A stretch of DNA of 64,000 bases from Flavobacterium sp. (GTDB taxonomy: Bacteria; Bacteroidota; Bacteroidia; Flavobacteriales; Flavobacteriaceae), in NCBI RefSeq assembly GCF_027482425.1, contig NZ_JAIXWA010000054.1, positions 124,001 through 188,000 of the forward strand. The letters run 5' to 3'. The number at the start of each line of letters is the position of its first letter. The first letter of the stretch is position 1. The notes below the pieces were generated by a model. That model made no database searches. It worked only from the letters and a program-made list of their open reading frames with translations, and was not told where the DNA came from. Below are positions 2,986-14,850 of the stretch, in pieces. The translations under genes were made by a program, and so were the position numbers.

Positions 2986-4302
2986 CTAGTATCTATAATA
3001 TTCTGGCTTGTAAGGTCCTTCCACTTGAACACCAATGTATTCGGCTTGTTCGTGGTTTAAGGTTTCCAATTCAACACCTAATTTCGCTAAGTGTAAGGCC
3101 GCTACTTTTTCATCCAAATGTTTCGGCAACATGTACACTTCATTTTTGTAGTTGGCACTGTTGTTCCACAATTCGATTTGTGCCAACGTTTGGTTGGTAA
3201 ACGAGTTACTCATTACAAAACTGGGGTGACCGGTAGCACAACCTAAGTTCACTAAACGACCTTCGGCCAAGATAATGATATCGTTACCGTTTACGTTGTA
3301 TTTATCCACTTGAGGCTTGATTTCGATTTTGGTTTCGCCGTGGTTTGCATTCAACCACGCCATGTCGATTTCGTTATCAAAGTGACCGATATTACAAACG
3401 ATCGTTTTGTCTTTCATGTTCTCGAAGTGACGACCTATTACGATGTCTTTGTTTCCTGTAGTCGTGATTACGATATCAGCGGTAGCGATAACCGTATCTA
3501 ATTTTTTCACTTCAAATCCGTCCATGGCTGCTTGTAATGCACAAATAGGGTCGATTTCAGTTACCGTAACGATAGAACCAGCTCCACGGAACGAAGCTGC
3601 TGTACCTTTTCCTACGTCACCGTAGCCACAAACTACGACGCGTTTCCCGGCCAACATCACGTCAGTTGCACGACGAACCGCATCTACAGCCGATTCTTTA
3701 CAACCGTATTTGTTGTCAAATTTCGATTTTGTAACCGAGTCGTTTACGTTGATCGCGGGCATGTGTAAGGTACCATTTTTCATACGCTCATACAAACGGT
3801 GAACACCTGTTGTTGTCTCTTCCGACAATCCTTTGATACCACCAATCAATTCGGGGTAACGGTCAAATACCATATTGGTTAAATCTCCACCATCATCCAA
3901 AATCATGTTTAACGGTTGACGATCTTCACCAAAGAATAAGGTTTGTTCAATACACCAGTCGAATTCTTCTTCGTTCATCCCTTTCCAAGCATATACGGGG
4001 ATGCCCGCAGCAGCAATAGCTGAAGCTGCGTGATCTTGTGTCGAGAAAATGTTACAAGACGACCAAGTCACTTCTGCTCCTAACGCTTTTAAGGTTTCAA
4101 TCAAAACCGCCGTTTGAATGGTCATGTGCAAACATCCCGCGATGCGCGCCCCTTTCAACGGTTGCGAAGCGCCATATTCTTCACGCAATGCCATCAATCC
4201 TGGCATTTCAGCTTCTGCCAATTCAATTTCTTTACGTCCCCAGGCTGCAAGGGAAATGTCTTTAACTTTGTACGCCACGTAAGGCACAGTTTTCGTACTC
4301 AT
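2986..4302 (-). CDS. ahcY: Adenosylhomocysteinase
   Basis: 438 residues, the normal length for S-adenosylhomocysteine hydrolase, which reversibly splits SAH to adenosine and homocysteine and so keeps methyltransferases from product inhibition. The NAD-binding Rossmann motif GYGDVGKG is intact. So are the substrate-side stretches [12 protein letters not shown] and [13 protein letters not shown], and the C-terminal PEYYRY that contributes to the neighbouring subunit's cofactor site. Cytoplasmic homotetramer in known members. It is alone on its strand, with its own terminator. No SAH riboswitch is visible in the 266-nt upstream gap. Confidence 0.97.
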
Positions 4303-13059: not shown

Positions 13060-13450
13060 TGCTGCACTCTTAAACCTTTCCACTTTTACACTAAACTAAC
13101 TTTGTGAAACCTTGTGCTCCAAAATTTTTAAACATTAAGAAATAAAGAACACTTACCAAACCGCATAAAATTAAGGGTATTAAGTCGGCCAAGGGCCGCG
13201 TCTTTGCCTACTTAAATCGTTGCGAACTTTACGACTACTTTGTGACTTTGCGGTAAAAATTAGAAGAGAGAAGCAAGAGAAAAGAAATGCTTCATTTATA
13301 AAAGGTACGTACTACACTTTTAAACTTCTATTTGAAAATGAGGTAATTTGAAAATTTAAAAATGATCTTTCAAACGTAATTACTGCTACACTATTAAACC
13401 CTTTCCACTTTTACACTGAAATTCCAATAAATAAATCCCTCCCGAAGTTC
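13060..13450 (+). repeat. Long direct repeat, left copy (R1)
   Basis: The gene-free stretch 13,000-13,572 is mostly this unit. Blocks shared in the same order with 14,453-14,775 are: a CACT-TTAAAC-CTTTCCACTTTTACACT module, GTGCTCCAAAATTTTTAAAC, ATTAAGTCGGCCAAGGGCCG, TTTGTGACTTTGCGGTAAAA, GAAGCAAGAGAAAAG-AATGCTTC, a second copy of the first module, and CCAATAAATAAATCCCTCCC. The longest matching part (about 13,178-13,265) differs at only a few positions. It contains no open frame of note. Confidence 0.8.
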
Positions 13451-13455
13451 GAGAG

Positions 13456-13492
13456 CCAACGTCTAACGACTAAATTCTAACGTCTACTTACC
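13456..13492. repeat. GTCTAAC-type word repeat (site 2)
   Basis: CAACGTCTAACGACTAA and TCTAACGTCTA repeat the vocabulary of the site at 2,937. It directly follows R1, just as site 3 follows R2. Confidence 0.5.
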
Positions 13493-13572
13493 AGTCACCC
13501 CTTCCCAATGCGACTGAAAACTATATCTACGACCTCGGGGTAAAGTACACTATAAAAAAATTCTTGTTATAT

Positions 13573-14256
13573 CTATTCAAATCTTTCTAGAGCATCCATT
13601 TCATTCGTACACAAAAAAATGTCTTCAAATAAAGTATTAGCATCCACATCCATCCAAGTTAATAAATCAACAATATGCTGAAAATGGAGGCGGGCATAAT
13701 TTGCACTAATCGTAGTAGTTGGACCAAAACAAATGGGTTCATGATGTGCGACTCGGTTTCGCAACGAATTAATTTGATTTAATTTTTGATAAATCACCTT
13801 TTGATTTAATTTATGGGGACGCTTAGGAAAAATGCTCAATAAGATATTACCACCTGCTTGGTATTGCTTGCCTGCAAAAAGAAATACCCAGACACCAAAG
13901 CTTAATTCAGCTACTAACTTGTCATGAGTATATTGCTTGCCCAACTTGTTATAGGCTGCTTGAATTTTTACCAATGACTTTTCACATCCTTTTTGAGTCA
14001 AGAAACCACCGTTATGAATGGCGTTAACTAACCATTCGTCGGCTCCATTTTGATCAAAAAAAGTGATTTTATAACATTGGTCAATTTTATATCTTAGTAC
14101 CACTTCAAAAATACTAAGCACCCCCAAAAAAGATTGGGATAATCGAATATTTGCCTTATAAAGTTGTTGCGTTTGGGATGTTGAAGCCTTGCATGATTGC
14201 CAATAACGGGCTAAACGAGGCGCAGATATTAAAGTTTCAAATTGATCATAATGCAT
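13573..14256 (-). CDS. Abi-family HEPN protein (abiF-like)
   Basis: 227 residues. The N-terminal helix RLSQSFLGVLSIFEVVLR (38-55), LSFGVWVFLF (118-127) and LRNRVAHHEPI (165-175) identify the Abi_2/AbiF-type abortive infection family. Arg166-Asn167 and His171 form the HEPN RN-x3-H motif, the usual metal-independent RNase active site. It is probably a cytoplasmic RNase toxin acting in phage defence. It stands alone, with no protein antitoxin beside it, between two direct repeats. A divergent promoter and a tiny terminated transcript lie just upstream (see 14,296-14,378). A TAtaTTTG box on the minus strand (14,312-14,305) would give a leader of about 45 nt. Confidence 0.85.
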   Translation of the reverse strand: MHYDQFETLISAPRLARYWQSCKASTSQTQQLYKANIRLSQSFLGVLSIFEVVLRYKIDQCYKITFFDQNGADEWLVNAIHNGGFLTQKGCEKSLVKIQAAYNKLGKQYTHDKLVAELSFGVWVFLFAGKQYQAGGNILLSIFPKRPHKLNQKVIYQKLNQINSLRNRVAHHEPICFGPTTTISANYARLHFQHIVDLLTWMDVDANTLFEDIFLCTNEMDALERFE

Positions 14257-14295
14257 TGTAATTCGGCTTGTAATGTTAAATTATGGCGTATAGCT

Positions 14296-14325
14296 ATTGA
14301 TTTTCAAATATATAAATTATCTTTG
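14296..14325 (+). promoter_or_regulatory. Divergent promoter upstream of the abiF-like gene
   Basis: ATTG (14,296-14,299), an 18-nt spacer and TAtcTTTG (14,318-14,325) closely match the Bacteroidota consensus. It points away from the Abi gene and overlaps the likely minus-strand -7 box of that gene (14,305-14,312). Confidence 0.65.
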
Positions 14326-14330
14326 AATTG

Positions 14331-14378
14331 TTATTCCCCGTTTGGCGCTGCTCTGCATCCATCGGGGTTTTTGTTTTT
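14331..14378 (+). ncRNA. Candidate small ncRNA divergent from the abiF-like gene
   Basis: About 6 nt after the -7 box begins CCCCG (14,336-14,340) and TGG (14,343-14,345), a 13-nt loop, CCA (14,359-14,361) and CGGGG (14,363-14,367), then TTTTTGTTTTT. The predicted RNA is about 48 nt and is almost entirely one terminator-like hairpin with a large GC-rich loop (14,346-14,358). There is no open frame. Candidate structured RNAs next to abiF genes have been reported by comparative genomics. Whether this matches that motif needs a covariance search. Confidence 0.5.
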
Positions 14379-14452
14379 CATGGGCTAACCCTTCGCGGCT
14401 TAGTGCCTTTGTGGCAAAGAAAAAAGAAGAACGTGATTCATAAACGGCTCAC

Positions 14453-14775
14453 AATACACTTTTAAACCCATTCCACTTTTCCACTAAACACTTTTGTGCA
14501 ACTTTGTGCCTTTGTGCTCCAAAATTTTTAAACATTAAGAAATTAAGGTTATACACATAGCCGATAATGATTAAGAAAAATTAAGTCGGCCAAGGGCCGC
14601 GTCTTTACCTACTTAAATCGTTGCGAACTTTGCGACTACTTTGTGACTTTGCGGTAAAAATTAGAATAGAGAAGCAAGAGAAAAGTAATGCTTCATTCAT
14701 AAACGGCTCACAATACACTTTTAAACCCTTTCCACGTTTACACTGAAATTCCAATAAATAAATCCCTCCCAAGTT
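14453..14775 (+). repeat. Long direct repeat, right copy (R2)
   Basis: The gene-free stretch 14,257-14,867 holds the Abi promoter region, the candidate ncRNA, a fragment (14,394-14,421) with TTAGTGCCTTTGTGGCAAAG, and this second copy of R1 in the same orientation with the same order of blocks. It is shorter because the second inner spacer is reduced. The two copies start about 1.4 kb apart and bracket the Abi gene and its ncRNA. Confidence 0.8.
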
Positions 14776-14778
14776 CGA

Positions 14779-14850
14779 GGACCAACGTCTAACGACCACT
14801 AATCACTAATCATTAATCACTCTAAAGTCTAACGTCCAACATCTACCAAC
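14779..14850. repeat. GTCTAAC/CACTAAT word repeat (site 3)
   Basis: ACGTCTAACGACCACTAATC, CACTAATCATTAATCACT and GTCTAACGTCCAAC continue the same short-word family between R2 and the histidine kinase gene. Confidence 0.5.

Follow-up and report, generated by a model that had tools for sequence, protein, structure and literature searches.

The window, by which we mean the whole 64-kb stretch of DNA that was analysed, carries on its minus strand a compact gene for an Abi_2/HEPN protein and, diverging from it on the plus strand, a promoter-like sequence followed by a short hairpin with a U-rich tail. The features are as follows.

13,573-14,256, minus strand: compact Abi_2/HEPN predicted RNase toxin gene (open reading frame, 227 aa, RNRVAH at R166-H171)
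14,296-14,325, plus strand: presumed Bacteroidota-type promoter of the RNA, ATTG-N18-TATCTTTG (sequence match)
14,305-14,312, minus strand: TATATTTG, possible toxin promoter overlapping the RNA promoter (sequence)
14,331-14,378, plus strand: 48-nt hairpin-terminator RNA of class A, proposed antitoxin RNA, TTATTCCCCG...CGGGGTTTTTGTTTTT (folding, covariance model R1, conservation)
14,336-14,340, plus strand: 5' arm of the outer stem, CCCCG, pairing with 14,363-14,367
14,343-14,345, plus strand: UGG, stem beside the bulge, pairing with CCA at 14,359-14,361
14,346-14,348, plus strand: CGC, the C-N-C bulge common to class A RNAs (comparison of class A loci)
14,349-14,357, plus strand: inner hairpin UGC-UCU-GCA, with both F. 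stagni differences in the UCU triloop
14,363-14,367, plus strand: 3' arm of the outer stem, CGGGG, pairing with 14,336-14,340
14,368-14,378, plus strand: U-rich terminator tail TTTTTGTTTTT (sequence)

The original prediction had placed an Abi-family protein with an RN-x3-H motif, a promoter of the form ATTG-N18 and a CCCCG/CGGGG hairpin RNA at 13,573-14,256, 14,296-14,325 and 14,331-14,378 respectively, and all these coordinates proved correct. The 13-nt loop that it described holds only if the UGG/CCA pairs are counted as stem; 22 nt separate CCCCG from CGGGG. The 48-nt RNA folded more stably than most of its shuffled versions (z -2.47, 3/200 shuffles equally stable). Its folding energy slightly favours a different inner pairing (-13.3 vs -12.6), while sequence comparison gave an outer stem, a 3-nt C-N-C bulge, a UGC/GCA inner stem closed by a triloop and one unpaired 3' base. 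The covariance model R1, built with the window excluded, returned this site as its single match in the 64-kb window at E<=1, with a modest score of 26.3 bits (E 0.0026 over 89 kb).

Judged by eye, the neighbouring open reading frames look like ordinary genes and not like a defence island. Direct repeats in the same orientation (147 nt at 93%, 57 nt at 96% and others) flank the Abi-RNA cassette at 13,112-13,484 and 14,512-14,836, and weaker copies occur elsewhere in the window's genome; they are possibly the trace of an insertion, or merely spreading intergenic repeats.

Conservation of the Locus in Flavobacterium

The homologue of F. stagni, whose protein is 83% identical to that of the window, was used to compare the locus stretch by stretch. 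Identity reached 38/40 in the promoter and 46/48 in the RNA, both changes falling in the apical loop, and 584/684 (85%) in the coding sequence. The leader between RNA and gene retained 24/34 positions and the 3' flank of the gene 36/72, and successive stretches past the RNA showed 35/62, 45/160 and 46/260 identities (18-56%).

A search of 398 Flavobacterium genomes gave a homologue in 23 of them, the window's own included. The 27 places found were reduced to 25 loci when two split genes were joined, namely 19 open genes (counting L013 despite its non-ATG start), four broken genes and two fragments. The broken genes comprise L009 with a frameshift near its end, L014 without the HEPN motif and the split pairs L017/L028 and L027/L029; the fragments are L024, at a contig end, and L025, where no RNA was seen. 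A divergent hairpin occurred at all 19 intact homologues, detected by pattern at 18 and by eye at L022, and these RNAs were assigned to class A, the window type (6), class B (12) and one other shape (L022). All four broken genes retained a class A RNA. At the 23 open and broken loci together, the pattern search picked up a class A or class B hairpin in 22 cases, its first base lying 42-107 nt away from where the gene or match starts. Three of the Abi genes, L010, L011 and L014, also have Flavo-1 RNAs (RF01705) around them, at 2405-2484, 383-476 and 3256-3339 respectively. At L006 a class B RNA (1162-1201) lies about 300 nt upstream of the class A toxin-RNA pair and is perhaps a remnant of a lost class B module.

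The promoter-like sequence TAnnTTTG stands 10-13 nt ahead of the hairpin at 20/22 Flavobacterium loci, as compared with 83/2576 control windows of 45 nt. On the gene strand it was present at only 5/19 intact loci, two of these being F. stagni and the window, and this scarcity suggests stronger transcription of the RNA than of the toxin. Overlapping divergent promoters, as originally proposed, are seen in the window and in F. stagni (TATCTTTG on the plus strand, TATATTTG on the minus strand), but the small number of loci with a gene-strand site does not extend this arrangement to the group.

Structure Classes and Covariation of the RNA

Class A RNAs consist, in order, of an outer stem, the C-N-C bulge, a UG...CA inner stem, one unpaired base, the other side of the outer stem and a U-tail. 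Base pairing was evaluated on set A5, made up of seven Flavobacterium class A RNAs (6 distinct rows) and excluding the window; the MAFFT alignments A2 and A8, which misregister the window stem, were left out of the pair counts. In this set 95.5% of the cells were paired, against 23-42% when the arms were slid, and 5 of 500 shuffles reached the number of cells changed on both sides, 6 of 500 the covariation score; three pairs were changed on both sides, which is not unusual (124/500 shuffles).

A wider comparison covered 26 class A-like loci, picked after the motif had been seen; L041, an orphan with a decayed stem, was omitted, as was L008, which is identical to L006. The class A rule, stated so as to demand no complementarity, fits 23/26 of them, the misfits being L069, L033 and L060. 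The three pairs adjacent to the bulge are formed in 64/69 cells (shuffled mean 47.8, 0/10,000 as high), and the third of these is GC in 8 cases, AT in 7, TA in 3, CG in 1 and unpaired in 4. The RNA of the window, UGG-CGC-UGC-UCU-GCA-U-CCA, comes very close to that of Neorhizobium, GGU-CAC-UGC-UCU-GCA-C-ACC, the two having CUGCUCUGCA in common.

For class B, an alignment of 11 sequences (without L016 and L019) was 94.5% paired, with six pairs changed on both sides (3/500 shuffles) and a covariation score reached by 0/500 shuffles. Since class B has AAGCCUCU in common with the consensus of RF03085, the Rfam abiF RNA, there is a hint that the two RNAs may be of common descent. The examination of regions upstream of homologous Abi genes, which had been put forward as a check on the hairpin, returned a divergent hairpin at 19/19 intact Flavobacterium loci together with covarying pairs.

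The Abi_2/HEPN Protein

The window protein narrowly passes the Pfam Abi_2 profile (PF07751), scoring 26.7 bits against a curated cut-off of 25.6. Among the PADLOC profiles the best was PD-T4-5 (2.9e-7), followed by AbiD (2e-6), the PD-T4-5 match being partial and aligning residues 2-177 with positions 6-206 of 309. The R-N-x3-H motif of HEPN RNases is present (R166-H171), and E51, W75, W123, R166, N167, R168 and H171 are invariant across 37 aligned sequences. On the sequence comparisons, we place the protein in a compact Abi_2 branch that resembles PD-T4-5.

An AlphaFold model calculated with the alignment of 37 sequences had a mean pLDDT of 91.9; a single-sequence model (pLDDT 33.5) was dropped. 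Foldseek returned no PDB match at E<=0.001 and ranked first PbAbiF bound to its ncRNA (8vz6, E 0.014). VIA-align superimposed 205 residues on 8vz6_A with Z 13.0 and an rmsd of 3.3, the next best Z being 5.3, with the program's own warning that helical models may reach Z 13 through common arrangement alone. Csm6 and HepT were middling structural matches only. Profile searches of the PDB gave 8vz6 as sole match with alignment A4 (E 0.066) and as second with alignment A9 (E 0.039), where a designed repeat protein ranked above it (E 0.0044); the latter contained no significant stretch and was taken as chance. The window RNRvaHh aligns with RNSCCHH of 8vz6. Judged by its structural match to PbAbiF, the predicted model has the AbiF fold.

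Occurrence of the RNA with and without a Toxin Gene

When R1 was run with strict filters on the 398 Flavobacterium genomes, a search in which the window's genome itself lies below threshold, ten matches reached 46 bits. Seven are the training loci, and the other three are L042, at the L009 locus with its broken Abi gene, L043, where the contig breaks off but an Abi-like start codon can still be seen, and L041, an orphan with a decayed stem. None of ten weaker matches (30-37 bits) has an Abi gene; by eye, nine resemble ordinary terminators, while L050 apparently lies inside a coding sequence.

In 375 Bacteroidota genomes R1 returned 16 matches in 14 genomes, all outside Flavobacterium. Three are beside an intact Abi gene, four beside a broken one and nine have none detected, absence being defined as none at E<=1e-3 in a flank of up to 1.5 kb (at L091, only 179 nt on the gene side). 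L099 and L105 have flanks in common with L100, yet are without its Abi gene. The orphan class A RNAs L096 and L103, in two Bacteroidota genomes, directly follow an acetolactate-synthase-like gene (by eye) and seemingly serve as its terminator, and the orphan L101 adjoins another gene (by eye). In three genomes the orphan RNAs L092, L093 and L094, at which the Abi gene was not found, have an identical hairpin and similar sequence just upstream, L094 diverging from the other two farther upstream.

Equal conservation of the hairpin at loci without an Abi gene had been named beforehand as an argument against the pairing, and with 9/16 of these matches lacking a detectable gene it was found in part. 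The RNA is often without an intact toxin, while 0/19 open Flavobacterium toxins are without a hairpin, an asymmetry expected of an antidote and its poison; the same observation cautions against treating the hairpin as specific to Abi loci.

Distribution on Plasmids, on Phages and in Other Phyla

The window protein matches 885 plasmid records at E<=1e-3, some of which may be canonical AbiF. We chose 25 plasmid and phage loci by hand from the match listings and assigned their RNA classes by eye. Class A occurs at 14 of them, from Hymenobacter, Chryseobacterium, Riemerella, Phocaeicola, Neisseria (whose record, though entered as a plasmid, is as large as a chromosome), Neorhizobium, Xanthomonas, Sphingobium, Methylobacterium, Kocuria, Shinella, Agrobacterium, Sinorhizobium and Bradyrhizobium. 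The no-complementarity rule fits 13 of the 14, the exception being Neisseria, an R1 match of 28.2 bits; the Riemerella RNA fits the rule but forms only 1/3 of the pairs. The sequences indicate that RNAs of the window's class, altered by compensatory changes, are also present on plasmids from other phyla. Among the loci outside Flavobacterium compared with R1 at E<=10, it matched L065-L069 and L075 (E 0.092), and no match was obtained at L070, L071, L072, L074, L076, L078, L081, L082, L083, L085, L087-L089, L033 and L060. On the Chryseobacterium plasmid L066, a gene of the Abi family of about 300 aa (158-1063) lies on the same strand, 437 nt before the compact Abi gene.

The remaining plasmid and phage loci have class C (n=2, Pseudomonas), class D (n=3, E. 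fergusonii and Klebsiella) or class E (n=2, Pantoea and a Vibrio phage), with 4/25 (L073, L079, L080, L084) showing no nameable class; the relatives in E. fergusonii, Klebsiella, Pantoea and the Vibrio phage have divergent hairpins of classes other than the window's (by eye). Two overlapping searches of viral contigs gave 11 and 56 loci, and five upstream regions judged by eye were of class B (L054), A-like (L060), C-like (L062) and unclassified (L055 and L057). In 395 genomes of the order, profile A4 at E<=1e-10 found, among the matches listed (at most 7 candidates scored in each), one genome besides the window's own (G723/L033), with a divergent hairpin that does not fit the class A rule.

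RNA classes, those of the plasmids being assigned by eye, were mapped on a tree of 41 chosen proteins that left out unclassified and broken ones. Six changes were required, the least possible, against a shuffled mean of 18.9; three changes are needed for class A alone and two for class E, and the branch leading to L030 is very long. On this tree RNA class follows protein clade.

Proposed Function of the Module

Because hairpins of this structure are found again next to related genes from several bacterial phyla, the RNA probably serves as antidote in a toxin-antitoxin or phage-defence pair overlooked by standard annotation. By analogy with AbiF, the RNA is most likely a type III-like RNA antitoxin, and we are fairly confident that the locus is a compact divergent module of RNA antitoxin and HEPN RNase toxin working like the type III-like AbiF systems. 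The structured RNA partner of an AbiF-related HEPN RNase that had been predicted gains support from the conserved position, the covariation, the RNA class following the clade and the PbAbiF-like fold; the description of this partner as guide-like found no support, there being no variable spacer.

In the mechanism we propose, the protein would be a PD-T4-5-like Abi_2 HEPN RNase with the AbiF fold, and an RNA of about 48 nt would be transcribed from a separate promoter and terminated by its own hairpin. With the C-N-C bulge and the UG inner stem as contacts, the RNA would bind a presumed HEPN dimer and so hold the RNase inactive. Failure of host transcription, by phage takeover or loss of the locus, would then deplete the short RNA, and the freed RNase would arrest the cell, which might confer protection against phages.

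The hairpin could instead be simply an intrinsic terminator, possibly one dispersed as a repeat, with no role with the Abi protein. Its terminator form, the orphan copies behind the acetolactate-synthase-like gene in two genomes and the terminator-like appearance of 9/10 weak Flavobacterium matches (by eye) agree with this explanation, which we nevertheless regard as quite unlikely, because the hairpin faces away from the Abi gene behind a promoter-like TAnnTTTG at 20/22 loci, the C-N-C and UG/CA elements, needless for a terminator, recur across phyla, and RNA class tracks protein clade. An action of the RNA on expression, by base-pairing or divergent promoter interference rather than by protein binding, is suggested by the overlapping promoter-like sites of the window and F. 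stagni and by C. difficile RCd22, which is reported also to reduce abiF expression in cis (PMC12373285). We consider it unlikely, as the leader (24/34) is less conserved than the RNA (46/48), a gene-strand TAnnTTTG exists at only 5/19 loci and orphan RNAs retain the fold without the gene. AbiF has been reported as an ancestor of Cas13 (PMC12737573), and the RNA might accordingly guide the HEPN RNase to targets; this seems highly improbable, since just a U-tail follows the hairpin, the apical part of the window's RNA has two bases that are different in F. stagni, and CUGCUCUGCA is also found in Neorhizobium.

Returning to the antitoxin interpretation, we give about even chances to a broader proposal, that the whole compact PD-T4-5-like Abi_2 HEPN branch, whose members are annotated as solitary genes, forms a large RNA-antitoxin group that has escaped recognition. 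Each clade would have its own divergent RNA class, distributed over chromosomes, plasmids and phages from several phyla, and solitary RNAs would survive as immunity (anti-addiction) RNAs after toxin loss. If true, this proposal would supply the missing antitoxin of widespread "single-gene" defence proteins and add an antitoxin RNA of about 48 nt that doubles as its own terminator and is arranged opposite to the C. difficile RNA. Many natural pairs of RNA and HEPN protein would become available for studying the path from AbiF to Cas13, and the proposal predicts that PD-T4-5-type clones need the upstream flank for stable carriage.

Comparison with Known Systems

In ToxIN, a type III toxin-antitoxin system, tandem RNA repeats lie upstream of the toxin on the same strand. 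An RNA antitoxin acting against an RNase is a feature of ToxIN and is proposed here for the window; unlike the window's locus, ToxIN has an unrelated toxin and tandem, same-strand repeats. Cas13 uses a guide RNA with a variable spacer, whereas class A RNAs are a hairpin and a U-tail only.

The proposed identity of the hairpin with the catalogued abiF RNA motif failed in the covariance search. RF03085 had no match at gathering in the window and none at E<=10 in 13,400-14,600, none in genome G000 among the 150 of 1062 first-look candidates that were scored, and none among 40 loci scanned or in the RNA region of L010; in 23 genomes it occurred at other Abi-like genes alone (L030 above the cut-off, L031 below). 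Low Rfam scores near the locus (TarA, sn2317, IS605-orfB-I, GcvB, PhrS) were far under their cut-offs and were attributed to chance. By these searches, the window's RNA class lies outside Rfam. The two RNAs are alike in having a C-rich outer stem that closes a small hairpin and in standing beside Abi_2-like genes of the same genus (L030, L031), and they differ in their internal loops and in the same-strand orientation of RF03085 at both loci. The canonical control L030 scores 207 bits with Abi_2 and 252 bits with AbiD and has RF03085 on its own strand; canonical AbiF/AbiD proteins have about 300 aa, a strong score and a same-strand upstream RNA, against 227 aa, 26.7 bits and a divergent RNA in the window.

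PD-T4-5 is, according to the sections of PMC9519451 that deal with it, an abortive defence gene on an E. coli plasmid, toxin-antitoxin-like and a distant AbiF/D relative. It is the best PADLOC profile for the window protein and for 9/10 relatives, the tenth being L030. The window differs in its proposed partner, none being described for PD-T4-5 in those sections, where toxin/antitoxin tests covered only the three multi-component systems. Among the matches listed in the published literature, preprints being outside the scope, no antitoxin or divergent RNA was found described for the PD-T4-5-like branch, which is weak evidence of absence.

Abi2, AbiF and AbiD have been placed among the HEPN families (PMC3710099), and the nearest systems are AbiF with its RNA, represented by PbAbiF/AbiFr (PDB 8VZ6, Zilberzwige-Tal et al., as presented in PMC12737573 and PMC12373285) and by C. 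difficile AbiF-Cd. According to PMC12373285, the toxicity of AbiF-Cd requires R202/H207 and is neutralised, in a stem-dependent manner, by RCd22, a structured, co-transcribed RNA with two RF03085 motifs that is encoded upstream of the toxin gene on its own strand; the words "divergent" and "opposite" are absent from that text. The window's module resembles both systems in its HEPN fold, its R-x4-H motif and a structured RNA beside the toxin gene, and differs in that its RNA is divergent, of about 48 nt and of another structure, with a putative promoter of its own, and in that its protein has 227 aa against 300 in 8vz6. What is new with respect to the AbiF kind is the compact predicted toxin, the divergent RNA with its own putative promoter and an RNA class outside Rfam.
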